DNA from: Quadrisphaera sp. RL12-1S
Lineage (GTDB): Bacteria; Actinomycetota; Actinomycetes; Actinomycetales; Quadrisphaeraceae
Direction of reading: 5' to 3'
NCBI RefSeq assembly: GCF_014270065.1
Contig: NZ_JACNME010000011.1
Span: forward strand, 62,001 to 126,000
Length of the DNA: 64,000 nucleotides
Within the stretch, counting starts at the first letter, position 1. Each line of letters starts with the position of its first letter. This document shows, one piece after another, positions 38,870-63,831 of this stretch. The notes under the pieces are model-generated. The model saw nothing but the letters and a program-made list of their open reading frames with translations, did no database searches and had not been told where the DNA came from. The position numbers were made by a program, and so were the translations under genes.

Positions 38870-38897
38870 CCGTGCGCCTCCGCCCCGCCCGTCCGGC

Positions 38898-43468: not shown

Positions 43469-43604
43469 AGTGACCGCCCTGCCTTCGACGTCGCTCGGGG
43501 CTGTCGCTCCAGCCCTCCGCACCTGTCATCGGCAGCGCCGGGCCGCGCTGTAGGGCGCCGCGGTCGTGACGTGGCTCGAGGCCACCGACTGGCGCATGAC
43601 GCAA

Positions 43605-43640
43605 AGGCCCCCGACCAGCCGTAGAGCTGGTCGGGGGCCT
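43605..43640 (-). terminator. tRNA-Arg terminator left at the element junction
   Basis: A perfect 15-bp stem (AGGCCCCCGACCAGC) with loop CGTAGA, 21 bases beyond the 3' end of the tRNA remnant on the minus strand. It is the natural terminator of the original tRNA gene and is still on the chromosomal side. Confidence 0.85.
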
Positions 43641-43660
43641 GTGCGTCGCTGTCTCAACGA

Positions 43661-43702
43661 GCGGGCCCGGCAGGACTCGAACCTGCAACCTTCTGATCCG
43701 TA
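43661..43702 (-). tRNA. 3' half of tRNA-Arg at the element's left end (att site)
   Basis: On the minus strand the sequence runs CTACGGATCAGAAGG (anticodon loop and 3' anticodon arm, anticodon ACG), then T-arm GCAGGTTCGAGTCCTGC, then acceptor strand CGGGCCC and discriminator G at 43662. The 5' half is absent: instead of the expected 5' stem bases the sequence becomes CGTCATCC. This is a tRNA gene cut at the anticodon loop, the classical crossover position of tyrosine integrases. An intact copy should stand at the other end of the element, outside the window. The fragment itself is not a functional tRNA gene. Confidence 0.85.
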
Positions 43703-43917
43703 GGGATGACGCCTGGTGTCCGGTCACGTCCGGCCAGATGGCGCACGTTCCTGAGCAGCGGTTTCGTCTCGCGCCACCGTCCGCCTGGTCCACCTGGTGA
43801 GGGCTCGTGCGCGCACGTCCGCGGCTGATGTTGGCGCGGTGTGAGCGCACGAGCCCCTCCCCCGCGGTCGGTGGTGGCGATGACGCCTGCCCCGATCCCA
43901 CCGCGCCAGGAGCCCTC
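43703..43917. other. left-end non-coding region of the element
   Basis: Between the att remnant and the replication-type gene. It holds a perfect 12-bp inverted repeat GGGCTCGTGCGC (43801-43812 / 43845-43856, 32 bases apart), a short direct repeat of GTCCGG near 43718-43733, and two copies of GATGACGCCTG (43705-43715, 43879-43889). It probably contains the rep promoter and may hold recombination or origin sites. Confidence 0.5.
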
Positions 43918-44991
43918 ATGACCGACCGGTCGACCGAACCAGCCCCACCGAACGAGCCCGCCGTCGACGCCCTCGTCGTCGAGGACCAGCTCTTCTCGAT
44001 CGTCCCTGAGTGGGTCATCGAGGCCGACATCAGCGACCCCGCCTTCCGTCTCTACGCCCTGCTGCTCCGGTACGGCAACGGCAGCGGCGTCCGCATGCCC
44101 TCCCGCGCCACCCTCGCTGAGCGGCTGCACCGCTCCACGGACGCCGTCGACCGCGCGCTGCGCAACCTCGAGGAGAAGGGCCTCGTCGTCATCGAGCGGC
44201 GACGCCGCGGCGGAGTCAACCTCTCCAACCTCTACTACCTGCGCACCGCTCGCCCTGCTGCCGTCGACGGGCCTGATGGAGAGGGGGGTAGCCGCTCTTC
44301 TGCGGCCACTCCTCCCAGTACGTCTGGCGATCAGGCCACTCCCCCGCGGCAGAACCCGCCGGTCACAGCAGGGGGTGGCCGCACTTCTGCGGCTACTGGC
44401 CGCGAAACTGCGGCGGGGGTGGCCGCAGATCTGCGGCCCGACCCAGAGATCTCTACCCAGAGAAGTTCTCCTCCTCCCCCTCCATCCCCCGCACCGAGCG
44501 CCTCCCAGCGCGCTGCGCGGGAGGAGGAGGTGGAGTTCCTCCACAGCCTCAACATCGACCCCCAGGGAGGCCTGGACGTCATCGTCGAGATGTGCGCAGC
44601 GTCCCGCACCGCCCACGGACTCGGCACCGCGTGCTGGCAGGCGCCGCACCTGCTCGCCGCCCTGGAACTCGCCGTGCGACGGCGGCTGTGGCCGGCGCGC
44701 TTCGCCGCCACGGCGCTGCTGAAAGTCGCAGCGGACCCGGCCACCCGTTCCCCCATGCGCCTAGCCGAGGCGGGACCGTGGTGGGACGAGGCGTCCAAGC
44801 CCGAGCACGCCTCCGGCCTCAGCGCCGAGGACGTCGACGCCCTCGAAGCCCGGCTGCAGGCACTCGACGGTGGTCGGATGGCGCTGCAGCAGCAGGCTCG
44901 CGCCGAGCTGACGCAGGAGAGCATGCCGCTGACGCGCACCACGGTGCTGCGTCGCGCCTGCGAGATCCTCGATCGGCGGGCGGCCTCATGA
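43918..44991 (+). CDS. winged-helix replication-initiator-like protein of the element
   Basis: A 357-residue protein. Residues about 25-110 form a winged helix (FRLYALLLRYGNGSGVRMPSRATLAERL, then DAVDRALRNLEEKGLVVI) like those of plasmid or ICE replication and helix-turn-helix proteins. A Ser/Thr/Pro-rich linker (about 115-200) is encoded by DNA that carries four dyad repeats. The C-terminal 150 residues are helical. ATG start with AGGAG six bases upstream. Being first after the att site and next to mobilisation genes suggests a role in replication or control of the excised element; no Rep catalytic motif is visible. Confidence 0.6.
   Translation: MTDRSTEPAPPNEPAVDALVVEDQLFSIVPEWVIEADISDPAFRLYALLLRYGNGSGVRMPSRATLAERLHRSTDAVDRALRNLEEKGLVVIERRRRGGVNLSNLYYLRTARPAAVDGPDGEGGSRSSAATPPSTSGDQATPPRQNPPVTAGGGRTSAATGRETAAGVAADLRPDPEISTQRSSPPPPPSPAPSASQRAAREEEVEFLHSLNIDPQGGLDVIVEMCAASRTAHGLGTACWQAPHLLAALELAVRRRLWPARFAATALLKVAADPATRSPMRLAEAGPWWDEASKPEHASGLSAEDVDALEARLQALDGGRMALQQQARAELTQESMPLTRTTVLRRACEILDRRAAS
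44290..44438. repeat. four iteron-like dyads inside the replication-type gene
   Basis: Four 18-bp units with the form RGCCGCNNNNCTGCGGCN: 44290-44307, 44377-44394, 44398-44415 and 44421-44438. The last, GGCCGCAGATCTGCGGCC, is a perfect palindrome. The last three start 21 and 23 bases apart, about two DNA turns. They fall in the low-complexity linker of the encoded protein, so the DNA pattern rather than the protein seems to be conserved. Confidence 0.75.
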
Positions 44992-45074
44992 GCGCCCCGG
45001 CAGCGCTCATGGCCCTGCCCTGTCGGCCGGAGCCGGCGGCCGCTGCTGGCGTCGGAAGGGCGGGAGCAAGATAT

Positions 45075-45093
45075 GCATCTGGTACCCAGATGC
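45075..45093. promoter_or_regulatory. candidate oriT hairpin upstream of the mobilisation genes
   Basis: A perfect 8-bp inverted repeat GCATCTGG-TAC-CCAGATGC in a relatively AT-rich patch (AAGATAT precedes it), in the 217-base gap between the replication-type gene and mobC. A hairpin next to the nic site and directly upstream of mobC-relaxase is the usual position of oriT. Nothing else supported is seen in this gap. Confidence 0.45.
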
Positions 45094-45208
45094 GTCGTCG
45101 CTGCCGCGCCGGGGTCCGCTCGCCGCGCCTCGCGGGCCCCAGCGGGGGCGACGTCGACCGGGCGCGGTCGTCGTCATGGGCTAGCGCCGGGTGGGGCAGG
45201 TGCGCGCG

Positions 45209-45664
45209 GTGAGCGCCGACCTGCAGCGTCCTGGTCGGGCACGTCGGTACACCCGCGCCCGCGACCGGCAGGTCAAGTTCCGGGCCACGGCCGAGGAGTA
45301 CGCGCTGCTGACCGAGGCCGCTCGCTCGGCGGGACTGACGCCATCGGGGTACGCCGCCGAGGCAGCACTGGCCGCTGCCCGGGGTGTGCGGGCACCGTCG
45401 CTGACTCCGGTCCGTGAAGCTCTGGTGGAGCTCATGGCCGCCCGTACGCAGGTGCGCCGGGTCGCGGTGAACGTCAACCAGGCCGTCAGGGTGCTGAACG
45501 CCACGGGAGAAGCGCCGGAGTGGCTGGCCGCCGCGGTCACCATCACCGACCGCGCCGTTGAGCGCCTCGATGGGGCGGCTGCCGAGCTGGTCCAAGCCGC
45601 GCGACGCTCTCAGCGCTCGGCGACCGCTCCCCCGCTGGCGCTGACCGCACGGGAGGGGGCGTGA
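45209..45664 (+). CDS. MobC-like mobilisation (relaxosome) protein
   Basis: A 151-residue basic protein with a ribbon-helix-helix-type N-terminal domain (residues about 15-55, RQVKFRATAEEYALLTEAAR, then GLTPSGYAAEAAL) and a helical C-terminus (VRRVAVNVNQAVRVLNATGE) typical of MobC accessory proteins. These bind oriT beside the relaxase. Its stop overlaps the relaxase start by four bases (GTGA). The GTG at 45209 is chosen for length and the GCAGG upstream; GTG 45191 is in frame. Confidence 0.8.
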   Translation: MSADLQRPGRARRYTRARDRQVKFRATAEEYALLTEAARSAGLTPSGYAAEAALAAARGVRAPSLTPVREALVELMAARTQVRRVAVNVNQAVRVLNATGEAPEWLAAAVTITDRAVERLDGAAAELVQAARRSQRSATAPPLALTAREGA

Positions 45665-46677
45665 TTGGCAAGGTCGTCCGCGGCAACGACATCGGCGGGC
45701 TGCTGCGCTACCTGTTCGGTCCCGGCCGGGCCGACGAGCACATCAACCCCCATGTCGTGGCGGCATGGGACGACGGCGTGGTCGCCGCCCACACTCCGGG
45801 GAACGACCCGCGACTCAAGCGCCTGACGGCCCTGCTAGAGCAGCCCCTGGCCGCGCTCGACAACCGCCCCTCACCCGCGGTGTAGCACTGCCCTCTGCGC
45901 ACGGCCCCGGGAGATCGAGAGCTGACGGAGGCTGAGTGGGCTGACATGGCTGCCGAGGTGCTGCACCAGACGGGTCTGGCCCCTCGGGGTGACCTCACCG
46001 GATGCCGGTGGGTGGCTGTTCGCCATGCCGACGACCACATCCACCTCGCCGTCACGCTCGCGCGGCAGGACGGACGGCGGGCCCGCGCGTCCCATGACTA
46101 CGCGCGGCTCGGCGCGGCGTGCCGGACGGTGGAGGAGCGGTACGGGCTGACGGTGACACCGGCCCGGGACCGGACGGCACCGAAGCGGCCTACGCGGGCG
46201 GAGAACGAGAAGGCTGCGAGACAAGGGCGCGCGGAGACGCCGCGGCAGCGGCTGCGTCGGGAAGTCCGGAGGGCGGCGCTGGGCAGCAGTGACCTTGGCG
46301 GCTTCCTCCAGCAGCTGGAGGCGGCAGGGCTGCAGGTCCGCCTGCGCCACAGCGGGCTGGACCCAACCACGGTCACGGGCTACTCCGTTGCGGATCCAGG
46401 AAACCAGACGGCAGCCGGCGACCTTGTCTGGTTCGGCGGCGGCAAGCTGGCGCCGCACCTTTCCCTACGTCGTCTTGTTTCGAGTTGGAACACAGTCCCG
46501 CTAGTGACGACACCGACAGTCTCCACGACACTGCAGCGTCGCGACCTATCACTGGCTAGGGTTTTAAAGCTTACGTCGCAGGTCGTGGCGAGCGCTGAAC
46601 GTGGCAATCTCGCTGCAGGCTCAGCCCTGGCCGCTACAGCGCTCCTCAGGTCCGGCGCCCTGCGTCGTCGGCAATGA
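45661..46677 (+). pseudogene. MOBP-type relaxase interrupted by an in-frame amber codon
   Basis: A relaxase/mobilisation nuclease that would nick and lead the DNA during conjugation. Residues 1-74 (IGKVVRGNDIGGLLRYLFGP, then ADEHINPH) end at TAG 45883-45885. The same frame continues without any shift: HCPLRTAPGDRELTEAEW, then GLAPRGDLTGCRWVAVRHAD with the metal histidines in RHADDHIHLAV. Relatives have Trp at the stop, in V-W-H-C, so TGG to TAG explains it. The C-terminus ends 339 codons from the start, shorter than usual (about 500), and its last 60 codons use AT-richer codons, as if truncated by the cargo insertion. It is probably inactive unless TAG is read through. Confidence 0.85.
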
Positions 46678-46782
46678 TGACCCCTTCATCGGTCAAGAAA
46701 CACGATAAAGCCGAAGGTGTGGCGAGTCTGACCAAGAGAAACTTTCTCACCAGGCATCCCGCCGAGATGGCCGGCAGAACAT

Positions 46783-47994
46783 TCAATGCTCTAGACGTTG
46801 GCAGGCGCAAGCGACGTCTGAGGGAGTTGTCATCGAACTAACATGCTTCAACTCGGCCGAGCCATAGTCGCTTGTTGCATATCGCTTCAGAAAATCCTCA
46901 TAGGCCTTCATCTGCGATAGGTACTTTTTGTCCGGACAGGCCTTTCCGCTGGTGCTCTTAAACTCAATTAGATGCACCCTGGAAACATTTCCATATGAGG
47001 CGAGCATAACATCGAATCGACGACCCGCCGCCCGCTCCGGACCTTGCGTGCCACGAAGCCTCGAGAGATGATCAACGCAAAATTTCTTAAGTCCCCCCTG
47101 GCCGGGCGGCGGCACCATTTCGCGGTCCTCCGCGCCAAGGATCCAATAGTCGCGATCCTCGGCCGAATCATGACTCCTGTAGTCGAGGTCACCCTCGACC
47201 AATACATGATGAGGGACATACTGCGCAAGCAAATTGCGTAGATGGCTAACCTGGTTGCGGGTGGTAATGAGTACACGTAGCCAGAGGTTCTGCTCGTACT
47301 CAACCAGGCCAAGCGAGTCCGACAAGGCTGACTCTTGATGTGCCTTATGGCAAGCCATCACCGCCTCGGCATAACTATACGAATCAGCCGGCCAAGCATC
47401 TCCTGCCGTTTCCAATATCGCGTCAAATCCTTGACTGTCAATCAGGTGCTCGAAGCCGCGCGGCCCCGCTTCGCCATCCGCCTGAGCGCGCCGGGCCAGG
47501 ATAAGTACGGACGCCACCCTTGCGGTTGCGACGACCAAGCCAACATCTCCCTGAATTTCCGCGCCAAGATGAATGTGGCCCGTCACGAACCCTGGGTCTT
47601 GGCCTCGAATGAAACCTTGCACGACGTCCTCAGCCAAGGAACCCACGAGGACGTGTTCAGATAACACCTCTGGATAATTTGATCCGGCAGCCGGCCCACC
47701 CAACTTGGTGCTCTCGTCACGGGCCTGCCTCAGGAACCTGGCCGCAGCACCTGGGGCGGAGGTAAGCGTCTTGGCCCGCAGGGGGTTGGGCCAAACGACC
47801 TGGATGGGGGGATGCGATTGACTCACTAGGGGTGACAGTCGACTTCGGAGGCCGGGGGGGAGAGAATTGATGCCAACAGTCTGCAACTCTCGCTGAAATT
47901 GATGAATCCAGTTGGCGCTCCCTCCCGAGTAGTCGGCAAATTGCGCGCGCCGAATCCATTCTCGGAGCTGCTGATCCGCGCGCACGGTCGGCAT
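46783..47994 (-). CDS. PD-(D/E)XK nuclease-like protein, partner of the GHKL ATPase
   Basis: No named family recognised. A 403-residue soluble protein. Its C-terminal 80 residues carry the pattern of a PD-(D/E)XK nuclease: Asp328 in RRFDVML, Glu344-x-Lys346 in VHLIEFKST, and Gln361 with Tyr365 in YLSQMKAYEDFL. The first 320 residues are of unknown fold, mainly helical with few long hydrophobic runs. ATG start with AGGGAG eight to nine bases upstream. It begins 46 bases after the GHKL gene stop on the same strand, so they form one transcript. Codon use is clearly AT-richer than the flanks. A nuclease-type effector or subunit of a defence system is inferred from motif and context. Confidence 0.7.
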   Translation of the reverse strand: MPTVRADQQLREWIRRAQFADYSGGSANWIHQFQRELQTVGINSLPPGLRSRLSPLVSQSHPPIQVVWPNPLRAKTLTSAPGAAARFLRQARDESTKLGGPAAGSNYPEVLSEHVLVGSLAEDVVQGFIRGQDPGFVTGHIHLGAEIQGDVGLVVATARVASVLILARRAQADGEAGPRGFEHLIDSQGFDAILETAGDAWPADSYSYAEAVMACHKAHQESALSDSLGLVEYEQNLWLRVLITTRNQVSHLRNLLAQYVPHHVLVEGDLDYRSHDSAEDRDYWILGAEDREMVPPPGQGGLKKFCVDHLSRLRGTQGPERAAGRRFDVMLASYGNVSRVHLIEFKSTSGKACPDKKYLSQMKAYEDFLKRYATSDYGSAELKHVSSMTTPSDVACACQRLEH

Positions 47995-48040
47995 TCTCGA
48001 GACTCCCTATCCGTCGGGGTTTAGCAAATAGGTTGCAATG

Positions 48041-50101
48041 CTACTCGTTGACGAGCGCCGCCAATATAGGCAAGCCCAGCTTGTCGAAAAAGGCCCTATT
48101 CCTCTCAGTCGCTGAGTTAACGAGCCCGTCGAAACTGATCACTTCAATGTAGGCGCGGTGGCGATCATTGAATCCGAAGTAGCCGAGATTGTCATGAGTA
48201 GGGCGCAGATTTGACACGTCGCACCTCTCGATCATTTTCTCGGTAAGGTCCGCGATGATGTAACAGAAAGCGGGGGGCTCATGCGTCGGCGGGATGGGCC
48301 TGCCCGCCGCCGTCTTTACTCCACCCTCTCGAATTCTTTTCACGTAGTCCAGGCACTGCGTAATGGGGTTCTTGTCCTCAGTTGCATCCTTGCGCATTGG
48401 ACGTTTGATCTCAACGACTACAATTGAAGTTAGCGGCAGCCTCTGACCCTCGGCTGCCAATACTGGCGCATCGACTAATCTCGTGGCCACAATGTCAGGT
48501 TCGGTTGTGGAGTCCGACATGGTGATGGGCATGCTGCGAAGCGTCTTATCTGACGCGAGGTAGTCGTGAAAGGCCAGTCGCTCATCGACAATCCATAGAT
48601 TCGAACCATCCATAGCGAACTCACTGGAGTCCTTCCGCATGGGAACGATGAGTGAGTGGATCGCGTCTTCACGGCTGTACCTACCCTCTTGATCGGCCCG
48701 GATCAACCTCGCCAGGAGGTCAAGAACCGTGCGTCGTCGTGACACGTAGGCAGCCAAGTCCGACTGATTGATTTCACTAACCGTCGAGAGATAGTCCGCC
48801 AAGCGTTCCGGATAATCTTCGCTAGCACCGGCATCCGCCTCAGCGAAAATTTCCTGTCCGCGAGCCAAAGCCTCAGATTCAATTCTCTGCAGATGCCCAT
48901 GCAGCTGCATCTCTAGTTCATGATCTTTGATCGCCGGATCTACGGTGACCCCACGCTCTTCGATCTGCCTCAAGATTGGCCGATACCGCGGCGCCCGTTG
49001 ACTAACATAAGCATGGACACGCTCCTTTCCCTGCTCTTTAGCCAAGCGCAGAGACTCCTGCAAAATATCGCCAACCTCAAGAAGAACGGCGGCCCTAATC
49101 TCTTCTAGAGTCGGATCGCCCGCAAAAGCCTGACCGGCGACGCGGTCCGCGATGTCGAAGGCCGTCCTGTCCGAACGTACGCGCCCGTCAAGGTAGTCAG
49201 AAGTCAGGTAGCAGGCATAGACAAAGTCACCAGATCTAGAATTCTTGAGCTTTCCATGGAGGCCCGGCAATTTGCCGTTGAGACTCTCATCAAGCACCAC
49301 CCGACTTCCCGCACACCAATAAAGACGCGGCAGCGCATTTCGAGTCGACGGCTTGAGTCGGAGGTTGAGCATCTCGAAAGCCCGCTCCCCCACCTCAATT
49401 CTCGAACGAGAGAAGTCTGAATCGACGAAGTCATCCATTAGATCAACAAGAGCAATCGACTCGTCGTCATCCTTGATGACCATCGTAGGCGCACCGCCAG
49501 CCCGCAGGAAGTACCAAATGCAGTGCTCGAAGACTTCGCGCGCGATAGCGTCAACCCCCTTGGGGGCCTGCTGCTGAAACGACTTCTTGAAGCCGTCAAG
49601 ACTTACGACCGTTCCTGGCTGTGTGAGTGCGTCGATCTCACTGTCATGTTCCACCTCCCGCTCAATAGAGAAGCGGAACCGCCGTCCTTTGAGGCTGCCG
49701 CTCTCGTCTTTGAAAGTGCTGTGGATTGAAACCCTATCAAAGGCCTTGAGCCACAGAAGGCGCCCTACTCCTCGGCAACCAAGGTTCGATTTGAAGTCAC
49801 TGTCGAGTGTTTCGAAAGACAGCATGTTCTCTCTTGTGAATCCGACCCCGTCGTCTTGAACACTGAAGCCTGTGATCGGCTTCAACGGGGTGCGCCCAGG
49901 GCCGGTCTGGCCGAGGTCGAGCTCGTCTTGAAGATCACGGTGCACCTGGACCTCAATGTGCCCCGGTGTAGCCGCCCCCTCTGGTCGAGCGTCGATCGCC
50001 TGGATGGCGTTCACGATCGCCTCTTGGAGGGGAAGGAGGGCGTGGCTCTTCGGCAGGCTCGTGTTGCGAACACGGCCCGCGAGGGAGGTCGTCAGCGCCA
50101 T
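48041..50101 (-). CDS. GHKL ATPase fused to a PD-(D/E)XK nuclease-like domain
   Basis: A 686-residue protein. The N-terminal part has the GHKL (MutL/Hsp90/MORC-type) ATP site: Glu27 and Asn31 in LQEAIVNAIQAI, the Asp-x-Gly-x-Gly box in VQDDGVGF (Asp84, Gly85, Gly87), and the glycine-rich lid GCRGVGR (108-114). A long middle region (about 200-525) is helical. The C-terminal domain shows Asp536 in TTEPDIVA, Glu564-x-Lys566 in VVVEIKRP, and Gln582 in ITQCLDYVKRI, a complete PD-(D/E)XK set. ATG start with AGGAGGGGAG directly upstream; the frame stays open to 50221. It lacks a methyltransferase partner. It is lower in GC than the element around it. Confidence 0.8.
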   Translation of the reverse strand: MALTTSLAGRVRNTSLPKSHALLPLQEAIVNAIQAIDARPEGAATPGHIEVQVHRDLQDELDLGQTGPGRTPLKPITGFSVQDDGVGFTRENMLSFETLDSDFKSNLGCRGVGRLLWLKAFDRVSIHSTFKDESGSLKGRRFRFSIEREVEHDSEIDALTQPGTVVSLDGFKKSFQQQAPKGVDAIAREVFEHCIWYFLRAGGAPTMVIKDDDESIALVDLMDDFVDSDFSRSRIEVGERAFEMLNLRLKPSTRNALPRLYWCAGSRVVLDESLNGKLPGLHGKLKNSRSGDFVYACYLTSDYLDGRVRSDRTAFDIADRVAGQAFAGDPTLEEIRAAVLLEVGDILQESLRLAKEQGKERVHAYVSQRAPRYRPILRQIEERGVTVDPAIKDHELEMQLHGHLQRIESEALARGQEIFAEADAGASEDYPERLADYLSTVSEINQSDLAAYVSRRRTVLDLLARLIRADQEGRYSREDAIHSLIVPMRKDSSEFAMDGSNLWIVDERLAFHDYLASDKTLRSMPITMSDSTTEPDIVATRLVDAPVLAAEGQRLPLTSIVVVEIKRPMRKDATEDKNPITQCLDYVKRIREGGVKTAAGRPIPPTHEPPAFCYIIADLTEKMIERCDVSNLRPTHDNLGYFGFNDRHRAYIEVISFDGLVNSATERNRAFFDKLGLPILAALVNE

Positions 50102-50233
50102 GATGTCTCCCCTCCTAGCGTTTGGCGCGACCCTATCGACGGGCACTGACTGCGCCGGGGCGCGAGTGGCTTCGAGGGCCCAGTGGCTCTTCCTGGCGGC
50201 CCTCGACGCCCGCCTGACCACCGCACGAGGACC
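50102..50233 (-). promoter_or_regulatory. upstream region of the ATPase-nuclease cassette
   Basis: A 132-base gap between DUF4913 and the GHKL gene. On the minus strand a -10-like TAGGGT lies about 30 bases before the ATG; no convincing -35 is seen. The cassette may have its own promoter or be read from the secretion operon upstream. Confidence 0.35.
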
Positions 50234-50647
50234 CTAGAGCTCGTGGCGCTCTGGTGAGCAACTCACGAACGGCCCTCTTGCTCCGAGCAGGACAAGCAGT
50301 TGGGGATCAAGAAAGTTGTGGAACCAGGTGGAGAGCCCGAGCGCCGGGTCGCGGCGGAGAGCCTTCCACGAGCACCACAGAGCATCGAGCCGCACGACGG
50401 CCTCGCGGTGCTCTTGCCACTTGGAGCACCATCGAAACTCTCCACCCAGCGGGCGCCAGAAGGTGGCGCAGAAGTAGTCATGGACCCAGCTGTCAAGGTC
50501 GGGGTAGTCCTGCTCGCCCGTTGCGGCAACGCTTGAGCGGCCGCCGAGACTGGCGTCGGTGAGTGCGGCCTCGTCTGCGCGAAGCTCCAGCCGTGCCAGC
50601 CGGGAGTCGACTTCGGCCTGCCACCGCTCACTGTGCACATCGGTCAT
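50234..50647 (-). CDS. DUF4913 protein
   Basis: A 137-residue protein of the DUF4913 family, found almost only in actinobacterial conjugative elements next to the coupling protein gene. Conserved features: WVHDYFCATFWRPLGGEFRWC, HREAVVRLDALWCSWKAL, STWFHNFLDPQL and GPFVSCSPERH at the C-terminus. The start ATG overlaps the coupling-protein stop (ATGA), so it is translated with it. Function unknown; probably a transfer accessory. It ends with TAG. Confidence 0.85.
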   Translation of the reverse strand: MTDVHSERWQAEVDSRLARLELRADEAALTDASLGGRSSVAATGEQDYPDLDSWVHDYFCATFWRPLGGEFRWCSKWQEHREAVVRLDALWCSWKALRRDPALGLSTWFHNFLDPQLLVLLGARGPFVSCSPERHEL

Positions 50648-52395
50648 CGGTCGCCTCGGCGAGCCGACTCCTCGTAGTAGGGCTCCAGACGCACCTGGGC
50701 CACCCGCAGGCCGGTGGCCAGCAGGAGCGCCGTCCCCTTCGGCATCGCCCGCAGGTCCTCAGGAGGTAGTAGCCGCTGGCGGCGCAGGGAGGTCGTCACC
50801 GACCGCGATGCGCGCTGACGTCCGTCTCCGCCGCCGTCGGCGTAGGAGCGCACCGCGACGTCGTGCTCACCCACCAGGCGGCTGACGTCCTCGGCGAACT
50901 TGGCGTCATCGATCCCTGCACCAACGAGCTTCACCGTGGCCGCCGACCACAGCGAGTCCATGCCGGCCTCGCCCCAGACGCGGACGCCCTGGCGGTAGGA
51001 CTGCAACACCGTCAGTGGCACCACGCCGCGCGACCCGAGGTGGGAGTACAGGTCCGGCAGGTCGGCGATCTTGCAGATGTTCGCCGCCTCATCCAGCACG
51101 ACGACCAGCGGCGGATCGAGTCGCGCACCGGCGGACCGCTCCGCAGCGCGGATGCCGTCGTGCATCAGCCGGTCCACCAACGCGGCCACCAGCGGCGCCG
51201 CGGTCCCGGCACCGTTCTTGGACAATAGATGCAGCGTCTGCCGCGACGTGACGAACGCAGCGGTGTTGAACTCCTCGCCCCCCGTGGCGCCGCTAATCCG
51301 TGGTGGCACCAACCAGCGCATGATGACCGGGTCCCGCAGCGCGGAGGCAGCGGTGCGTGCGGTCTCATAGACCCCGTCACGGGTCTCGACGGCGCCGTTC
51401 TGCCATCCGACGACCGCAGCGGCCGCCGCATGGTGGCCGTGCGCGCGCAGGAGGTTGGCCGCCGTTAAGACGGCGGGCTCGGTGAGTGACTCGTAGACCT
51501 CCGGCAGCGATCGCTCTGACAGGGCAGCAGCCATCAGGAGGTTGGCGAGCAGGTCGCGGGCTGCGCTGGACCAGAGGTCGCGCCCGTCGTTGTCACCGCG
51601 GATCTCGGTGATGAAGTGCCCGGCCAGCCGGGTCGCCTCTTCGACGGTGGTGACCCCACGCAGAGGGTCCCACCACATCGCCTGCGTCTGCCCGATCACG
51701 CCTTGGGGGTCGAAGACCCATACCCGCTCACCGGTCTAGGCGGCCCGCTCGGCGGCGGTGGCCTCCCATAGGTCCGGCTTGATCGAGGTCGCCAGGACCG
51801 GGCCAGGGGCGTTACGGACGATCGGCACCGTCAGCGTCGTCGTCTTGCCGGCCCGGGGCGCCATCACCGCCAGCAGCACGTCCTCCCACGACGCCCGCAG
51901 CCGCGGACCGCGAGGTACGAGCACGCCTAGCGCCAGGCCGACGTCATCAGCAGTCACGTCGCGTTCGGGCAGCTGCGCCAGCGACCGGCGCAGGCGTCGA
52001 GCTCGCTCCTTCGCGGGGGCCGGGGTGAGCGGCGCCACCTCGTTCGCCTGCGCAAGGCCCTCGACGGGGGCGAGCACTCGCCGGCCCAGGACCGTGAGCG
52101 CCATTCCTGCCGCAGTCACGAGGGCAAGGAGCAGGAGGCTCACGACGACAACGGCCCACGTCGGTGTCCCCGGCCACACCGCCTCGACGCCGTCACCAAC
52201 CAGGAGCCGCACGAAGTTGACGCCGAACGGCGGTGACATCCACCCGTTCCCAGCGAGCCAGGACGCCGTCGTCCCGGCCAGCCGTACCAGCCATGCGAGC
52301 CCGACAATGCCCCACACGACTCCCAGCAGGGCCATCGGCAGGCCGAGCCCAGGCGCTGCAGCGCCGCGGGGCTCCAGGGCGCGGGTCACGCGCAC
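50644..52395 (-). pseudogene. VirD4/TraG-type coupling protein interrupted by an in-frame amber codon
   Basis: The type IV coupling protein that would carry the relaxase-DNA complex to the secretion channel. Codons before the stop encode two membrane helices (about 20-40 and 78-103) and Walker A in MAPRAGKTTTL; the frame then meets TAG at 51736-51738 and continues in the same frame with GERVWVFDPQGVIGQTQAMW. Later parts are intact: LVVVLDEAANICKIADLPDL (Walker B) and VPLTVLQSYRQGVRVWGE. CAG or CGG is the expected codon at the stop. Without readthrough the ATPase would be cut just after Walker A. The GTG start is at 52395; its stop overlaps DUF4913. Confidence 0.85.
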
Positions 52396-52556
52396 AGCCC
52401 GCGCTGGCGACCGAACAGCCAGTCACGACCCCGACACAAGCGCGAGGCCCTCGGCGCCCTGCCGCCCAGAGTGCTCGGGCGCGCTGGCATTGAGCACGAC
52501 ACCATCGCAACGCAGCCCATGATCGTTAAGGTGCCTAGGGCCTGAGTCGAGCACCG

Positions 52557-52597
52557 CTGGGCGGGCGGACGACCTGCCTGGCCCCCCGCCCACCCAG
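52557..52597 (-). terminator. hairpin after the 84-residue gene
   Basis: A 12-bp stem (CTGGGCGGGCGG / CCGCCCACCCAG, one mismatch) just beyond the stop of the minus-strand gene at 52606. The remaining gap to the coupling protein (52396-52556) shows no gene. Confidence 0.5.
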
Positions 52598-52605
52598 AGA
52601 GTCCG

Positions 52606-52860
52606 CTACGCGGCGTCGACCGTGTCCCGAAGGGCCTCAGCCGCCTCGACCGCCATGTCGTGCTCGTGGCGCTCCAGGTCGCCATCGTGAAGCTCCGACA
52701 GCACAGAACCGGTGACGGGGTCGGTGAAGACGGCGGAGCGACGCAGATACCGGCTTCCGCAGTGTTCACAGTCGTCGACGACCTCAGATAGTTCGACGGA
52801 TGGAATCTTCGCTGCGTCAAGCCCGCCAAATAACTCGGGAGTGTGCACAATAATCCCCAT
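52606..52860 (-). CDS. small hypothetical protein with a CxxC motif (84 aa)
   Basis: No family recognised. The product is acidic and soluble, with one CEHCGSRYLRRS motif near residue 35 that could bind zinc with other ligands, and a helical, Glu-rich C-terminus (DLERHEHDMAVEAAEALRD). The ATG at 52860 lies just after a perfect AT-rich palindrome, which suggests autoregulation or control by a repressor. It sits alone between the coupling protein and the VirB4-like gene, and may be a small regulator of transfer; that is inference. Confidence 0.55.
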   Translation of the reverse strand: MGIIVHTPELFGGLDAAKIPSVELSEVVDDCEHCGSRYLRRSAVFTDPVTGSVLSELHDGDLERHEHDMAVEAAEALRDTVDAA

Positions 52861-52868
52861 CGTAGTAT

Positions 52869-52881
52869 TTGTATGATACAA
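52869..52881. promoter_or_regulatory. AT-rich palindrome TTGTAT-G-ATACAA
   Basis: A perfect 13-bp palindrome eight bases upstream of the 84-residue gene, in one of the few AT-rich spots of the element. It has the form of a small-repressor operator overlapping a promoter. Confidence 0.55.
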
Positions 52882-53002
52882 GCAACACTATTCCTGTGCG
52901 GCCCGCGCTGGCCAGGCTTGTCGCCTGTTCGGCGCAACGGCGGGAGCAGCGACTCGCAGCACGCCCTGGCTAAGAAAGCGCCGCAATCACTCGACACGGC
53001 TC

Positions 53003-54577
53003 TCAACTGAAGAGCGCCGGCTCGTCGACCGACGTCGGCCGACCGGTGGGGCGCACGGCGCTATCGGTGTCGTACAGCCGCGCTTCGTCGCCGACGTACT
53101 CCAGCTCTACGGGGATGCCGACCCGCTGCCCGGTCTTGATGAGGTACTTCCCCCGCCCGGGGTGGCGAGCGCCGGCCTGCCAGGACTCCGGCGCCGACCA
53201 GGATGCGACCATCGCCCGCTCCTTGTCTGACAGCGGCACCACCGCCGAGACCGCGTCCAGCTCCCGCGGCGGCAGCCCGGCCAGCACGGTGACCGCGTTG
53301 CGCTCGACGAACCCGCGGGCCTTGGCCCGGTCCTCCTCGGTCGGCAGCGCGGAGAGGTCGTCGAGGGAGTGCGTCGCCATCGCGTGAGCGACGTCGCGGC
53401 CCCGGTAGACCCGGGTGAGCGCGTCAGCGTGGTCGACCAGCCCGGGCGCTCCCCGCAGGGCCCGCCACAGCTCGTCCATGACGGCGAAGTACTTGCGCCG
53501 CGGCGCCAGCCCGGCCTCGGCCAGTGCGGTGGAGGCGTCTATGGTCGCGAAGCCGTAGGACCAGGTCGACAGCATCGCCGCGGCGACCAGGGTGTCCCCG
53601 GAGGCAGCGACCGCGGAGATGTCGACGCTGACCGCCGGCGCTTTCAGGTCGATGGGCTGCGTCGTGGGCCCGTCGAAGACGCCCCTGAGAGAGCCCTCGC
53701 ACAGCAGCGCCAGGGTCTGGCGCAGCTCTTTGGTCTCGGCGCGGTAGGCGTCGTGGTCGTCGAGCTCGGAGGCGGCGACGAGCCGGTCGGGGCCCTCGCG
53801 GACCACTTTGAGCACCTCGGGGATCGTCGGGGACATCTCCTGGCGCTGCGCCGCGGTCATGCCCGCGGGGAGGCGACCGCGGGGCTTGCGGTCGGTGAGC
53901 AGGTCGACGGCCGCGCCCAGGACGACCTCCTCGCCGTTGGTCATCCCGCCGTGGCGGCGGACCAGGGAGCACAGCGCGAGGGTCGCCGACAGGCGCCGTC
54001 CGCGGACCTCCAGGCGCAGCCGGTCAGCAGCCTCCCCGCTGAGCTGGCTGAGCGCTGAGCCCAGCGGCCCGGCGTCCAAGGGGTTGATGCGGTCCAGGCC
54101 CCGTCCGACGCGGATGACCTGCCCGCCGGCGGCCTCGACGATGGCGGAGTAGTCCGGCTTCAGGTCACCCAGGAACAGCGGCCGCACGCCGAAGGCCATG
54201 AGCCCGCGGGCCAGGCGCTTCAGCGCCGCGGACTTTCCGGTCCCGGGCTGGCCGAGCAGCGTCAGCCCGCGGTTGGTGACCAGGCCGGCCTCGAGCCAGG
54301 CGAAGGGGTCCAGGCAGACGACCTCGCCCCACATCATGTGGCGCCCGAAAGGCACCCCGACCGACGGCGCCCCGGAGCCGGCGACGAAGGGGAACAGGCC
54401 GCAGGCCTGCACGGTGGTGGCCTGATACTCCGGGGCGACGCCGGCGTGGGCGAGTCGCCCGGCGCCGCGGTCGCGCCAGCCCCAGGCGGGGGCGACGACG
54501 TCGGGCAGCGCCGGCCGGGCTGCCGCGCGGGCCGCCCTCGCCGTCGTCCTGCTCTCTCGACGGACGGCGCGGCTCAT
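53003..54577 (-). CDS. VirB4/TraC-like conjugation ATPase
   Basis: A 524-residue ATP-binding protein of the actinobacterial conjugation type that powers the type IV channel. Walker A is GQPGTGKSAALKRL near residue 110, with the following FLGDLKPDYSAIVEAAGGQ and GRGLDRINPLDAG typical of VirB4-like proteins. Walker B is seen in KYFAVMDELWRAL, followed by ATHSLDDLSAL. The ATG at 54577 overlaps the SCO6880 stop (ATGA). Unlike the relaxase and coupling protein, it has no premature stop. Confidence 0.85.
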   Translation of the reverse strand: MSRAVRRESRTTARAARAAARPALPDVVAPAWGWRDRGAGRLAHAGVAPEYQATTVQACGLFPFVAGSGAPSVGVPFGRHMMWGEVVCLDPFAWLEAGLVTNRGLTLLGQPGTGKSAALKRLARGLMAFGVRPLFLGDLKPDYSAIVEAAGGQVIRVGRGLDRINPLDAGPLGSALSQLSGEAADRLRLEVRGRRLSATLALCSLVRRHGGMTNGEEVVLGAAVDLLTDRKPRGRLPAGMTAAQRQEMSPTIPEVLKVVREGPDRLVAASELDDHDAYRAETKELRQTLALLCEGSLRGVFDGPTTQPIDLKAPAVSVDISAVAASGDTLVAAAMLSTWSYGFATIDASTALAEAGLAPRRKYFAVMDELWRALRGAPGLVDHADALTRVYRGRDVAHAMATHSLDDLSALPTEEDRAKARGFVERNAVTVLAGLPPRELDAVSAVVPLSDKERAMVASWSAPESWQAGARHPGRGKYLIKTGQRVGIPVELEYVGDEARLYDTDSAVRPTGRPTSVDEPALFS

Positions 54578-56130
54578 GCGAGCACCCGCCCAGCGACGTG
54601 TGCGGGGTGCAGCCCCGCGGGCAGCGTGGTGGCGAAACCGAGGGCTTGGGAGCCCCACAGCCGGCGCAGCCGGACCTTGGACTGGTCGGCCCGGGCCTCG
54701 GTGTCGGCGATCGCCGCGGCCAGCGCCGTCGGGTCGTCCCCGTCCAGCACCGTCGTCGTGACGTACAAGCTCATGAGCACGACCCCGGCCCCGAGCGCCT
54801 CCTCACGGGCCGCTGCCACGGCGCGTTCGCGGTCGGCGATGTCGCGGGCCGTCGCGTCGCGACCCTGGCTGCGCCGGTAGGCGTCGCGGAACGCGGCAGC
54901 GTTCACCTGGCTCTCCAGCACCCGGGCCGCGGCGCCTGCGGGCAGCGGCCGGAACAGCAGAGTGACCCGGCGCGGGAACCGCCCCGGGGAGAGCAGCCGA
55001 GTGAGCACGTTGGCGGTGACCTGCTGGCGGGGTGCCTCGTGCCAGGCCCAGGAGACCGAGGTGCCGGAGTCGTGGCGGTAGGTGCCCCAGCTGTCCTCGG
55101 CGGCCACCGGGCCGGCCTCGCCCCAGGCGAGCAGCGGGCAGGTGCCCGCGCCGGAGGAGGAGGGGAGGGCGTCGTCGAGCAGGGCGTTGACGTCGCCGCG
55201 GCTGGCGGGGTCGAACGCGGTGCGCACCGTGCCGGCGAGCTCGGCGGCACTGGCCCGACCGAGGACGGTGACGCCGCACTCCCCGAGCGCGGCCTCCATG
55301 CCGGTCAGGGCGCGGGCGACCTCGGCGGTGCGGTCGGCGAGGTCAGGCAGCCGCTCGCCGGCGCGGGAGGGGTCGAAGGTGATGGAGACGCGGGTGTCGA
55401 CGTCGGCGGCCGCCGCGGGCGAGCGCAGGATCAGGTCGCGCAGCAATGCGAGGACGTCGGCGGGTGCGTCCGGGTGCAGCCGGGAGGCGACGTTGCGGGC
55501 CAGCGTCGAGCCCGGCTCCGGTGCGGTGTCGACGGTGACGGCGACCCAGGCCACCAGCGGGTCGAAGCCGCGCGAGGCCAGCCAGGAGTGCCACGAGGCG
55601 ACCCACCCGTCAGCGGCGTCGCTGTCGACCAACCACGTCGAGGACGACGCGCAGCGCAGCGTGGCGGTGAGCATCCCGGAGCGCTCGTCATGCACCAGCC
55701 CGAACGCCCCGCCGCGACCGTCGGCCACGGACAGCAGCCGCGTCGTGGCCAGGGCTCCGGGGAGCTGCCAGGCAGAGGGGTGCTCGACGACGACGCCTGA
55801 CCGCAGGCTGGTGTACCCGCGCATCCGCGCCCAGGTGAACTGCCCGCGGCGCAGGGCGACGTCGGTCAGCGGGGCGCCGTCGAACCGCGCAACGGTCAGG
55901 GCCGCGACGAGCGCGCAGGGCAGCGCGACGACGATCCCAGCCCGCGCGGAGGTGCTGAGCGCCAGCAGCGGCAGCACGATGCACGCCAGGACGACGGCGG
56001 TGGCGAGGGCGCCGAGGCCGAACAGGCCGATGCCGCGGGTACGGCGCCAGCCGCTGTAGGTGCGTGGTGGCTGCGCCGCCATCGAGGCCGTCGACGTCGT
56101 CGTGTGCGGTCGCATGGCGGTGGTGCTCAT
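54574..56130 (-). CDS. SCO6880-family conjugation protein
   Basis: A 518-residue membrane-associated protein of the SCO6880 family, which occurs directly upstream of the VirB4-like ATPase in actinobacterial type IV clusters. Two hydrophobic helices lie near residues 35-80 (GLFGLGALATAVVLACIVLP), in a PrgI-like position; the rest is cytoplasmic and resembles the N-terminal half of VirB4 (VNAAAFRDAYRRSQGRDATAR). With the downstream gene it may form a split VirB3/VirB4 unit; this is inference. Both its ends overlap neighbours by four bases. Confidence 0.82.
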   Translation of the reverse strand: MSTTAMRPHTTTSTASMAAQPPRTYSGWRRTRGIGLFGLGALATAVVLACIVLPLLALSTSARAGIVVALPCALVAALTVARFDGAPLTDVALRRGQFTWARMRGYTSLRSGVVVEHPSAWQLPGALATTRLLSVADGRGGAFGLVHDERSGMLTATLRCASSSTWLVDSDAADGWVASWHSWLASRGFDPLVAWVAVTVDTAPEPGSTLARNVASRLHPDAPADVLALLRDLILRSPAAAADVDTRVSITFDPSRAGERLPDLADRTAEVARALTGMEAALGECGVTVLGRASAAELAGTVRTAFDPASRGDVNALLDDALPSSSGAGTCPLLAWGEAGPVAAEDSWGTYRHDSGTSVSWAWHEAPRQQVTANVLTRLLSPGRFPRRVTLLFRPLPAGAAARVLESQVNAAAFRDAYRRSQGRDATARDIADRERAVAAAREEALGAGVVLMSLYVTTTVLDGDDPTALAAAIADTEARADQSKVRLRRLWGSQALGFATTLPAGLHPAHVAGRVLA

Positions 56131-57383
56131 CGGTTCTCTCCTGCGGAGGTGTTGGTCATGGCGCCGCCGGCGATGTGGCTGGCGGCGACGGTCGCGTCGT
56201 AGGCGCCCTTGGCGGCCGCGACGCCTGCACCGGCGACCCCGCCAGCGGCACCGGCGCCCGTCGAGCTGCTCGCCGCCGTGGACGCAGCACCAGCGCTGGT
56301 ACCGGACACCGTGGAGGACGCAGCGGTGGTCGAGGCGGCCCCGCTGGCCGCACCGCTCGCCCCACCGCCGGAACTGCCAGGCGCTGCGTAGGCCGACGTC
56401 GCTGCCGGACCGAGGTCGGCCTTCATCTGCGTGGCGTGAGCACCCGCGTCACCACCGGAGCCCGAGCCCGCACCACGGAGTGCCGAGACCCCCTGTGCGC
56501 CGGCGGCGGCGAGTGACAGCGTCGTCGACAGGCCGCGGCTCGGGCCGCCGCTGTCTCCGGTGGCCCAGCTGAAGAACCGCATGAGCACCGGTAGGGCCAC
56601 GACGCTCATCACGATCATCGACAGGCCGACGATGACGGTGCGCGGGTCACCACCGGCCTGCAAGGAACCCTCCGGCCCGGCCGTCATGCGCAGCGCGACG
56701 GCGTACACGAGGGCTGCGACGGGCTTGTAGGCGATCAGCGCCAGCATCCAGGCGAGCACCTTGCCCAGCCACGGTCGTCCGTAGCCGGTGACGTTGCGGG
56801 CGGCGGCGAGCACCAGCAGACCGGCGAGGACGACGACGGCGCCCTCGCGGAACATCATCAGCACGGCCTGGATGAGGCCGGCGAGCATGACGAGCAGGCC
56901 GATGACGATGGCTGCACCGGCGGAGTTGATGCCCTGCAGCCCGGCCAGGGCCACGAGGCGCTCGACGACCTGGCCGCTGGCGGCACGGTCGAGCACCCAG
57001 GAGGAGAAGTCGTCTCCGGCGCGCAGCGCCAGGGCGGAGCCCGTGATGCCGACGGCGGCCCACAGCGCGAGGGTGACGAGCCCGCGGCCGATGTCGAGCA
57101 GCGGGTCCAGGCGGTGGGTGATCGCCATGCGCACGCCCTGCCAGGTCACACCTGCGGCGGCGATGACGAGGGAGAGCCACCAGACGTCATCGCGGATGGC
57201 CAGGGCGGGGGAGTTCGCGACGTCGATGGCGGGTACCTCGACCCACCAGCCGATGGTGGTCTTGATGACCCAGGTCGCGCCTTCGCGCATGGCGTCGGCG
57301 AAGGAGTTGCCGAGGCTGGCGGTCGCCGCGTCTGCGACGGCCCCGACCACGCAGGCAGGCGGGTTGAGCGGGTCACACGGCAT
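56127..57383 (-). CDS. TrbL/VirB6-like conjugal transfer membrane protein
   Basis: A 418-residue polytopic membrane protein with about six or seven helices between residues 65 and 290 and a long Ala/Ser/Gly-rich hydrophilic C-terminus (about 300-418). This matches the TrbL/VirB6 inner-membrane channel component. It begins MPCDPLNPPACVVGAVADAA, a start often seen in actinobacterial homologues. The start shares one base with the stop of the upstream gene (TGATG), inside the secretion operon. Confidence 0.75.
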   Translation of the reverse strand: MPCDPLNPPACVVGAVADAATASLGNSFADAMREGATWVIKTTIGWWVEVPAIDVANSPALAIRDDVWWLSLVIAAAGVTWQGVRMAITHRLDPLLDIGRGLVTLALWAAVGITGSALALRAGDDFSSWVLDRAASGQVVERLVALAGLQGINSAGAAIVIGLLVMLAGLIQAVLMMFREGAVVVLAGLLVLAAARNVTGYGRPWLGKVLAWMLALIAYKPVAALVYAVALRMTAGPEGSLQAGGDPRTVIVGLSMIVMSVVALPVLMRFFSWATGDSGGPSRGLSTTLSLAAAGAQGVSALRGAGSGSGGDAGAHATQMKADLGPAATSAYAAPGSSGGGASGAASGAASTTAASSTVSGTSAGAASTAASSSTGAGAAGGVAGAGVAAAKGAYDATVAASHIAGGAMTNTSAGENR

Positions 57384-58243
57384 CAGTTGTCACCTCCCAC
57401 CGCGGGCTGGGCGGGGTCGAAGACCGTGATGCCTGCGGGGACGTCAGGCAGCTGGGCGACGACGCTGTTCCAGGAGCCGGCGCTGGGGGCTAGCAGGTGC
57501 CAGTCGTCGTCCTGCCAGGTCATGACGACATCGACGCTGAAGACCTGCCGCGAGCCATCCGCCGCCGCGGCGGTCAGGACGAGCTGCACGTGCCGGTTAC
57601 CGGCAGGTAGCTGCTCGACGTGGTAGCCGATCAGCCTGGCGTCACCCGCGGGCAGCGCCTGGCCGTCGCGGAGACCGGCCTGGACGCGAGCCTCGGCGTA
57701 GTCCTTCTCGACAGCGGCGTGCAGAGCCTGGCGGGCGGGTCCGGTGACCTGCTTCTCCAGGGCGGGACGGAAGGTGGTCGAGCCGGCTGTGGGGCCGGCG
57801 GCCCAGGAGATGTGGATGGCCGCCAAGACGGCGCCGAAGTCGGTTTTGCTGTACCCGACGTCGAGGGGGCCGTCGTGGCGGGTCGGTCCGGCGGTGGCCG
57901 AGACGGGCAGCGGGGTGCCCTGGTGGTCGACCCAGCTGAGGTCGCTCGTCGTTGTCGACGGCGCCGGGGACAGCTTCGGTGGGGTGGGTGCGGTGCTCTC
58001 CGGCGCGGTCACGCGAGGCGGACCATCGGCGCCGGGACCGTCGTCGAGGACGTTCCAAGCGGTCAGGGCCGTCGCGGGGAAGATGGCGGCGATGGTCGCC
58101 AGGACGGCGATCTGCCGACGTCGCCGCCGGTTCTGCAGTCGGGCCGGGTGGTGGGCGCGAGAGGCAGCGGCCCACCCGGTGCGGGGCGCGGCTGGATGCG
58201 CGCCAGGGGTGCGTCGTGGTGGTGGCACCAGCGGGGTGGCCAT
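57383..58243 (-). CDS. single-pass conjugation protein, VirB8-like candidate
   Basis: A 286-residue protein with a basic cytoplasmic N-terminus (LQNRRRRRQ), one membrane helix at about 45-63 (IAVLATIAAIFPATALTAW), a Pro/Thr-rich linker, and a C-terminal globular domain (about 120-280) with alternating strands such as VQLVLTAAAADGSRQVFSVDVVMTW-like residues. That topology fits VirB8/TcpC-type scaffold proteins; homology is inferred from layout and operon position only. Confidence 0.6.
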   Translation of the reverse strand: MATPLVPPPRRTPGAHPAAPRTGWAAASRAHHPARLQNRRRRRQIAVLATIAAIFPATALTAWNVLDDGPGADGPPRVTAPESTAPTPPKLSPAPSTTTSDLSWVDHQGTPLPVSATAGPTRHDGPLDVGYSKTDFGAVLAAIHISWAAGPTAGSTTFRPALEKQVTGPARQALHAAVEKDYAEARVQAGLRDGQALPAGDARLIGYHVEQLPAGNRHVQLVLTAAAADGSRQVFSVDVVMTWQDDDWHLLAPSAGSWNSVVAQLPDVPAGITVFDPAQPAVGGDN

Positions 58244-58513
58244 TCAGACCACCGCCCCGACGATGGCGGCGGAGAACGCGATGACCGTGAGCCCGCCGAG
58301 CACCCATGGGATGCCCGCTGCGCCGTCGGCGGCGACCGCGGAGCGGTTGCGTCGCCCGATCATCATCATGATCCCGCAGATCAGCAGGCCAGCGACGCCG
58401 GCGACCAGGCCGCCCCACTTCAGCCAGCCGAGCAGGGTGTTGACCGCGTCACCGAGCCCTGGTGGGGCCACGGGGGCGGGGTTGGGGATGGTGGCGGTCA
58501 GCAGCCAGCTCAC
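58244..58513 (-). CDS. small two-helix membrane protein, VirB2/pilin-like candidate
   Basis: An 89-residue protein with two hydrophobic helices (about 32-52 and 66-88) joined by a short basic loop MMIGRRNRSA. The N-terminal 25 residues are Pro-rich. The size and two-helix hairpin match VirB2/TrbC pilin-like subunits or the analogous small protein in actinobacterial systems. The GTG overlaps the stop of the ParA-like gene (GTGA). It lies in the secretion operon. Confidence 0.6.
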   Translation of the reverse strand: MSWLLTATIPNPAPVAPPGLGDAVNTLLGWLKWGGLVAGVAGLLICGIMMMIGRRNRSAVAADGAAGIPWVLGGLTVIAFSAAIVGAVV

Positions 58514-59103
58514 GAGGCAGTCCCTTCCTGCTGGCGTCGCTGAGCTCTGCTCGTGGCGACGGGGGCGGGCTCGACCGCGGCCACGAGCCGGGCCACGGCC
58601 TTGACGTAGGAGGCGGAGGGGCTGCGGTGGTCGCTCGCCTCGTAGCGCCACCGCTGGACGTGCGGGACCTCGGTGATGGAAGCGACGAAGACGCTGAGCG
58701 CGCGTACTCGGGCTCGCGCTCCGAGTGGCTCCTGTCCGCGTCCGTCGCGCACCAGAGCGAGGTGGATCGCGGGTGCGGAGGTGACGCTGGTCAGGCGTCG
58801 CACCGCGTGAGTCGCGGCGATGACGCCGTCCACGGTCGCAGCGGCGACCACGACGCAGTGAGCGGTGCCGTGCACTGCGACAGGCGTGAGGTCGACCTCC
58901 CGGTAGGTGTCGGGCAGATGGGCGGCCAGGGTGCTGGCTCCACTGCCGCCGTGGGCGCTGACCAGGGCGACGTCGGTCGTGGTCGGTGTTGCTGAGGAAG
59001 GTTCGGGGCTGCCAGCCGGGAAGGCGGCTGGGCCGTCGAGGGGCGCGGGTGCGGGTGGCGCCACGGCATCGGGAGCCGTCGTCATCATCACTGTGGTTGT
59101 CAT
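58510..59103 (-). CDS. ParA/MinD-like protein with a reduced P-loop
   Basis: A 197-residue protein. After a Pro/Ala-rich N-terminus, ALVSAHGGSGASTLAAHLP looks like a deviant Walker A (K of GKST replaced by A), followed by strands and helices in a MinD/ParA-like order. The missing lysine makes normal ATP hydrolysis doubtful. It is the first gene of the minus-strand secretion operon, just behind a dyad at 59115. A DNA- or membrane-positioning role in transfer is possible. Confidence 0.6.
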   Translation of the reverse strand: MTTTVMMTTAPDAVAPPAPAPLDGPAAFPAGSPEPSSATPTTTDVALVSAHGGSGASTLAAHLPDTYREVDLTPVAVHGTAHCVVVAAATVDGVIAATHAVRRLTSVTSAPAIHLALVRDGRGQEPLGARARVRALSVFVASITEVPHVQRWRYEASDHRSPSASYVKAVARLVAAVEPAPVATSRAQRRQQEGTAS

Positions 59104-59114
59104 TGGACAGACAC

Positions 59115-59128
59115 CTCATTCACATGAG
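59115..59128. promoter_or_regulatory. dyad CTCAT-TCAC-ATGAG at the head of the secretion operon
   Basis: A perfect 5-bp inverted repeat with a four-base centre, 11 bases before the first secretion gene and in the 163-base divergent region with the 59267 gene. The surroundings (GAGTTGATAG) are AT-richer than average. A repressor site controlling transfer genes in both directions is plausible. Confidence 0.4.
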
Positions 59129-59266
59129 TTGATAGCCGGACGCTACAACGCCACTCCGGCGATGTCACGCGCCCCGCACCGCCCCGACCAGCGATCACCG
59201 CGATCTGTGGACGGCGCGCTACGTCCTGCCCACCTGTGGAAACACCCTGTGGAAACGAGGCCCGCC

Positions 59267-59650
59267 ATGACGACCCCCACCACTTCCGAGGCCACCGAGC
59301 TGACCGAGGGCCCAACCACCGAGATCGCGCTCAAGGCGGCGCGGCAGCTGCTCACCGCGCTCGCCCAGCACGGGCGCGACGAAGGTGAGCGCACCCGCGC
59401 CGAAATCGCCCTGGCCCACCTCGACGACGTCTGGCCCCTGCCCGTGCCCGTCAACACAGCGGATGTCGAGGACATCGACGAGCGCGGCGCCCTCCTGCTC
59501 GACGAAGCGATGAGCGCCCTGGTCACCGTCGTCGCCACAGCCCCGGAGGCGCAAGCGCGTGCCCGCGGGCTGCGCGCGCTGGAGCTGCTCACCTCCACCC
59601 TCGAGTTGCCCGGCGACATGCCCCCTGGCACTCCTCCGGCGCAGCAGTGA
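59267..59650 (+). CDS. hypothetical element protein (127 aa)
   Basis: No family recognised. A soluble, acidic, largely helical protein with no signal peptide: KAARQLLTALAQHGRDEGER and ALLLDEAMSALVTVVATAPE suggest two long helices. ATG start; it shares the divergent promoter region with the secretion operon. Its stop overlaps the next gene by four bases (GTGA), so the two are probably made together. Confidence 0.6.
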   Translation: MTTPTTSEATELTEGPTTEIALKAARQLLTALAQHGRDEGERTRAEIALAHLDDVWPLPVPVNTADVEDIDERGALLLDEAMSALVTVVATAPEAQARARGLRALELLTSTLELPGDMPPGTPPAQQ

Positions 59651-60933: not shown

Positions 60934-60993
60934 GCGCTTCCTCACCCCATCTGCCGATTCAGCCGTCCACACCCGACAAGGGGAGCCATTGCC

Positions 60994-62418: not shown

Positions 62419-62439
62419 CACCTCGCACGATCGTCCTAG

Positions 62440-62775
62440 GTGTCGGTGGCCGGGGCAAGCATCGCGCCCGTGGCCGGAGGGATGGCGAAGGAGAGTGCAC
62501 CGCTGCCCGCGTGAATTGTCGCCGCCAACACGGAGCGACGGCTCGCGGCAGAGAAGGCGATGCGCCAGCGGCGACCGCCGGGCAACCCGTTCGTGTGGGT
62601 GGTCGGCTCGGAGGCTGACTACCCGGGGATCGTGGTCGATCGTCGCCGCGTCGGTGCCGGCTGGCAGATCTACGTGGCCTAGCCCTCACCGCGGCACGAG
62701 CTGATGCAGCAGTGGCTCGATGCCGAGCAACTGCTGCCCTACGAGAGTCCGCGGGCGAGTCCGTCGGCATCGTGA
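62440..62775 (+). pseudogene. decayed small gene with two in-frame stops
   Basis: One reading frame from GTG 62440 to TGA 62773-62775 (about 111 codons) is broken by TGA 62512-62514 and TAG 62680-62682. The parts read as coherent protein: NTERRLAAEKAMRQRRPPG, NPFVWVVGSEADYPGIVV, GAGWQIYVA, then HELMQQWLDAEQLLPYES after the second stop. CGA to TGA and TGG or CAG to TAG would explain both. No family recognised. The ending TGA overlaps an ATG at 62775. Confidence 0.55.
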
Positions 62776-63086: not shown

Positions 63087-63301
63087 CGAGAACCGGTCCG
63101 AGGGCGTCTAGCCCGTCCGCTCAGCGGTCGTCAACGAGACGATCTCCGGAGCATGATCTCCATCCGGTCGCGAAGATCTAACGGCCAGATGATCGATCAT
63201 GCCGTCGCCGCCGCGACGAGGCATCGCAGCAGTCGCTGCCCCATAGGGCAGCCACCCAGTCGATGTCCGCCTGACGAGCAGCTCGGAAGGGGATGGGAGC
63301 C
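63087..63301. other. non-coding gap
   Basis: No gene is supported here. Short AT-richer spots occur (for example near 63170-63200, GAAGATCTAACGG and GATGATCGATCATG, the latter containing a GATCGATC dyad), which may hold the promoter of the 63302 gene. Confidence 0.4.
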
Positions 63302-63688: not shown

Positions 63689-63831
63689 AGCTCCCATAGC
63701 CATTGATCCGCTGCTCGCGACACCAGCGGGTAGCGCTAGCGGTCCAACCGCCGTGGATGAGGGCGATGGTGAAGTTCGATAAGCGATCCCCATCCGTACT
63801 CTCCCGACGAGATGCCGAGTCGCGCAGTGGG

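Follow-up and report, generated by a model that had tools for sequence, protein, structure and literature searches.

Positions 43661-43703 of the window (the whole 64,000-nt stretch analyzed here, C11:62001-126000) are very probably the attL site of a T4SS-type ICE that a tyrosine integrase inserted into a tRNA-Arg(ACG) gene. Four features of such an island were found: a displaced tRNA fragment, a regenerated tRNA at the opposite end, an integrase gene adjoining the att site and an empty site in relatives.

A half-tRNA and its intact counterpart

Read on the minus strand, the 43-nt sequence at 43661-43703 is CTACGGATCAGAAGGTTGCAGGTTCGAGTCCTGCCGGGCCCGC. It corresponds to the 3' half of tRNA-Arg(ACG), beginning with the first anticodon-loop base and running to the tRNA 3' end. 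ARAGORN did not call a tRNA at these positions, and the 5' half is therefore absent. The initial annotation had described a 3' half only, at 43661-43702; the description holds, although the fragment ends one base further on, at 43703. It had also placed the break at the anticodon loop, correctly, as the repeat has its inner edge at C32, the first anticodon-loop base. Compared with the corresponding half of the intact tRNA-Arg(ACG) gene (C14:28858-28931), the fragment carries a single-base difference (GGGCCCGC vs GGGCGCGC). The changed base is absent from all other aligned copies in the genus and would disrupt pairing with the tRNA 5' half in the acceptor stem; such a change would be expected once selection on the fragment had ceased.

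An Rfam search at the gathering threshold gave no match. With up to 3 mismatches allowed, its 22-base core was found at one place in the window and at none in 100 shuffles. At the same tolerance the 43-mer was found at two places among all 27 contigs of the 4.62-Mb assembly, namely in the window and at C14:28858-28900 with one mismatch. Behind the fragment lies a hairpin with a 16-bp GC-rich stem inside a 6-bp outer stem, and the folded stretch that contains it has z = -5.5. This had been taken for the terminator of the tRNA gene. The hairpin is indeed strong, but it lacks a strong T run and was not listed in a terminator scan.

The fragment belongs to an imperfect direct repeat that reaches ~35 bp beyond the tRNA 3' end and is common to the right end on C14. 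Its inner limit on the plus strand is CCGTAG, the anticodon-loop edge; inward of this, attL runs on as GGATGACGCC and attR as the tRNA 5' half. The intact tRNA-Arg(ACG) was called by ARAGORN as a 74-nt gene on the minus strand of C14, ~110 bp from the end of an intact gene for a tyrosine integrase (C14:27548-28747, 399 aa) with Phage_integrase (PF00589, 1.2e-21), Arm-DNA-bind_4 and Phage_int_SAM_3 domains. A gene for a small HTH_17 protein of the excisionase type directly precedes the integrase gene. A search for repeats common to both element ends that could serve as integrase arm sites (12-mers, 1 mismatch) found none.

An intact minus-strand tRNA-Arg with the repeat and an integrase gene had been predicted for the far end of the element. 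All of these exist, but on C14 and not on the same contig. No second copy of the repeat was found on C11, searched to its end, because the contig stops at window coordinate 72,132 (C11 134,132), 8.1 kb past the window. The lack of a second copy on the contig, which the initial annotation would have counted against its own proposal, is therefore one of form only. There is no exact overlap between the ends of C11 and C14, and each of these ends falls in a region that has a close duplicate at another place in the assembly. At 98% identity, the final 242 bases of C11 match the opening 242 bases of C21 in reverse orientation, and this match probably explains the break in C11. The left boundary of the element is set to the base, and its other end has been located despite the broken assembly.

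These ends would be accounted for if a tyrosine integrase recombined a circular element, which brought its own version of the tRNA 3' half, with the chromosomal tRNA-Arg(ACG) gene, the exchange falling within the repeat that is bounded on its inner side by the anticodon loop. The version brought by the element would then have completed the tRNA at the right end, beside the integrase gene, while the chromosome's own 3' half and hairpin would have remained at the left end.

Empty and occupied sites in related genomes

In two genomes of the same genus (G001 and G002) the left flank from the window, an intact tRNA and the right flank from C14 are contiguous. The joined host flanks align over the junction as one block, at 83% for G002 and 78% for G001. 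G002 is matched, by its SCO6880 hits among other things, to a record titled 'Streptomyces sp. NP160'; as it was grouped here in the genus of the Quadrisphaera genomes, the record name looks wrong.

Two further genomes carry a sister element at the same tRNA-Arg(ACG) site. In Q. granulorum DSM 44889 (G003) the half-tRNA lies on C18 with the same inner junction, and the intact tRNA and integrase gene lie on C19; the integrase is 97% identical to that on C14. In Quadrisphaera sp. INWT6 (G004) the sister element is complete on one contig (C5), at about 57.8 kb, with the half near 146,661, a left module at 146.6-164.8 kb, an integrase module at 199.1-204.3 kb and the intact tRNA at about 204,444-204,517. 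Directly left of the half-tRNA in G004 is a degraded integrase C-terminus (C5:146232-146541), the vestige of an element that occupied this site before. A fourth element, of about 66 kb, occupies tRNA-Arg(TCT) in G002, which is split at the same 5' edge of the anticodon loop. Its half (C57:1089-1132) and intact copy are on one contig, the latter just past an integrase gene (66,225-67,415) whose product is 64% identical. Several genomes thus share the split-tRNA arrangement, which affects two different tRNA-Arg genes: the ACG site is occupied in three genomes and empty in two, and the TCT site is occupied in one.

Integration is thus supported by the empty sites in two relatives and by the sister elements contained in a single contig in two genomes (G004 and G002). 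Since the G003 sister element has the same inner junction and matches most of the next 19 kb, the half-tRNA is the true end of the element. The proposal that the half-tRNA marks the element's left border, made at the outset from the window itself, is borne out by these empty sites, sister elements and the matching G003 junction.

Two observations speak against assigning C11 and C14 to a single element. The ends lie on different contigs here, with the middle outside the assembly, and the remnant in G004 shows that a leftover piece of another element's integrase gene can occupy the tRNA-Arg(ACG) site. Elements might have accreted in tandem at the tRNA, so that C11 would carry the left part of one and C14 the integrase end of another; several elements are known to be stacked at one tRNA-Arg in Streptomyces (PMC9513070). 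A third copy of the repeat would then be expected, however, and the assembly has only two. G004 and G002 each pair one left module with one integrase module on a single contig, and G003 holds the same two halves as this genome. We consider accretion improbable and infer that the ends on C11 and C14 belong to one and the same element. There is hardly any likelihood that the half-tRNA is an old relic of a vanished element, unconnected with the adjacent conjugation genes: its changed base and the stops in two transfer genes would suit a relic, but the match to G003 and the open integrase and other examined conjugation genes would not.

Conjugation genes and comparison with known elements

Judged from sequence, the element is a T4SS-type ICE. 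Its assembled parts, 28.4 kb on C11 and 28.9 kb on C14, set a minimum size of about 57 kb. The features of its left end are listed in Table 1. Homology of the left module to G003, G004 and G002 extends to about 63,059. This module and an integrase-bearing right module of about 5.5 kb are kept across the sister elements, and the compared parts of the middle gave no match between them. Relatives of the SCO6880-family protein were found on 448 plasmid records, and the genera that came up most often there are actinobacterial; a literature search for SCO6880 together with conjugation found no paper. The membrane protein encoded next to it may, by its position, be VirB6-like. None of the left-module proteins scanned had a Pfam match to an FtsK/SpoIIIE-type translocase.

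Table 1. Features at the left end of the element (window coordinates).
Feature	Position	Strand	Basis
attL core: 3' half of tRNA-Arg(ACG), displaced, with its edge at the anticodon loop	43661..43703	-	repeat search, alignment, ARAGORN
Hairpin 3' of the tRNA end, chromosomal side; also behind the intact tRNA at empty sites	43598..43646	-	
Imperfect direct repeat common to the right end (C14:28822-28900), 78 bp, 93.7%	43626..43703	-	
Left portion of the element as far as the window reaches; extends to contig end (72,132)	43704..64000	.	homologous left module in G003, G004, G002
HTH_36 protein, first element gene	43918..44991	+	Pfam; conserved in sister elements
NikA-like mobilization accessory protein	45191..45664	+	PF21983
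MobA/VirD2-type relaxase gene, in-frame TAG at 45883-45885	45661..46677	+	PF03432
VirD4/TraG-type coupling protein gene, in-frame TAG at 51736-51738	50644..52395	-	PF12696, PF10412, PF02534
VirB4-type ATPase, weak family match only	53003..54658	-	no Pfam match; NCBIfam matches below cut-off only; 95-97% identical in sister elements
SCO6880-family protein of actinobacterial conjugation modules	54574..56130	-	NF042935, 5.6e-137
Conserved transfer-module membrane protein	56127..57383	-	conserved in sister elements; no family match

The relaxase and coupling-protein genes of this copy appear to be broken by their in-frame TAG codons. No stop interrupts the aligned parts of the homologues in G002, G003 and G004, and the open reading frames of the integrase gene and the other backbone genes checked are uninterrupted. 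Because both genes hold a stop, this copy is probably incapable of self-transfer. It should still be able to excise; most likely, as read from this one assembly, it can be excised by its own integrase yet would not be transferred without help in trans. Either TAG codon may be a sequencing error. Recoding of TAG is unlikely to be the cause of both stops, as the sister residues at these positions differ (W and S).

The arrangement of half-tRNA and element is common and well understood, and the mechanism is a textbook one. A regenerated tRNA together with a displaced 3' fragment defines tRNA-targeting islands, and in the Islander survey 3760 of 3919 islands had 3' fragments and about half (2083) had anticodon-centred sites (PMC4383910). 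The Quadrisphaera element shares with these islands the tyrosine integrase, the regenerated tRNA at one end, the displaced 3' fragment at the other and the anticodon-centred site, and its att anatomy shows no difference from theirs. T4SS-type ICEs are also known in Actinobacteria, with 17 putative elements (PMC3218068), and they likewise combine an integrase, a coupling protein, a relaxase and a VirB4-type ATPase, the last being a weak match in the Quadrisphaera element. That survey covered MOBF (TrwC) relaxases only, whereas the relaxase of the Quadrisphaera element is of the MobA/VirD2 type, and unlike those elements this copy has two interrupted transfer genes. AICEs (PMC3218068, PMC9513070) resemble it in their tyrosine integrase, in tRNA-Arg as a common site and in the presence of related elements at different sites through divergent integrases. 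They move double-stranded DNA by one FtsK-like protein, however, whereas the Quadrisphaera element has T4SS-type components and a relaxase.

The element is therefore of a known kind, and apparently an undescribed and defective member of it. A literature search for Quadrisphaera with 'integrative' gave nothing relevant by title or abstract and no description of the element. We suggest, tentatively, that these elements may form a Quadrisphaera ICE family with one conjugation backbone, in which divergence of the integrase would have switched the target between the ACG and TCT tRNA-Arg genes at the same anticodon-loop edge. The copy described here would have been stranded by the stops in its relaxase and coupling-protein genes, with its catabolic cargo kept. 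This small set of occupied and empty sites offers a way to examine how related integrases choose a tRNA site and how an ICE decays.

Cargo and inserted genes

The cargo on C14 (1-23 kb) comprises genes for an ABC transporter, an amino-acid permease, a glutamate-type dehydrogenase, two aldehyde dehydrogenases, a class III aminotransferase, an acyl-CoA dehydrogenase and a family III CoA-transferase, a set suggestive of amine or amino-acid catabolism. Within the transfer module in the window is a low-GC insert (46460-50255, ~56-61% vs ~73%) that the elements of G003 and G004 lack. It holds two minus-strand genes (46783-47994 and 48041-50221), one with a weak HATPase match, and these are possibly a defence-type pair; searches of Pfam, NCBIfam and PADLOC assigned the insert to no family at threshold.

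On the chromosomal side, an acyl-CoA dehydrogenase and CoA-transferase gene pair adjoins attL (38897-41306). An 87% identical copy of this pair lies in the element cargo in the same orientation (C14:20532-22995), and recombination between the two copies would remove the left end of the element.
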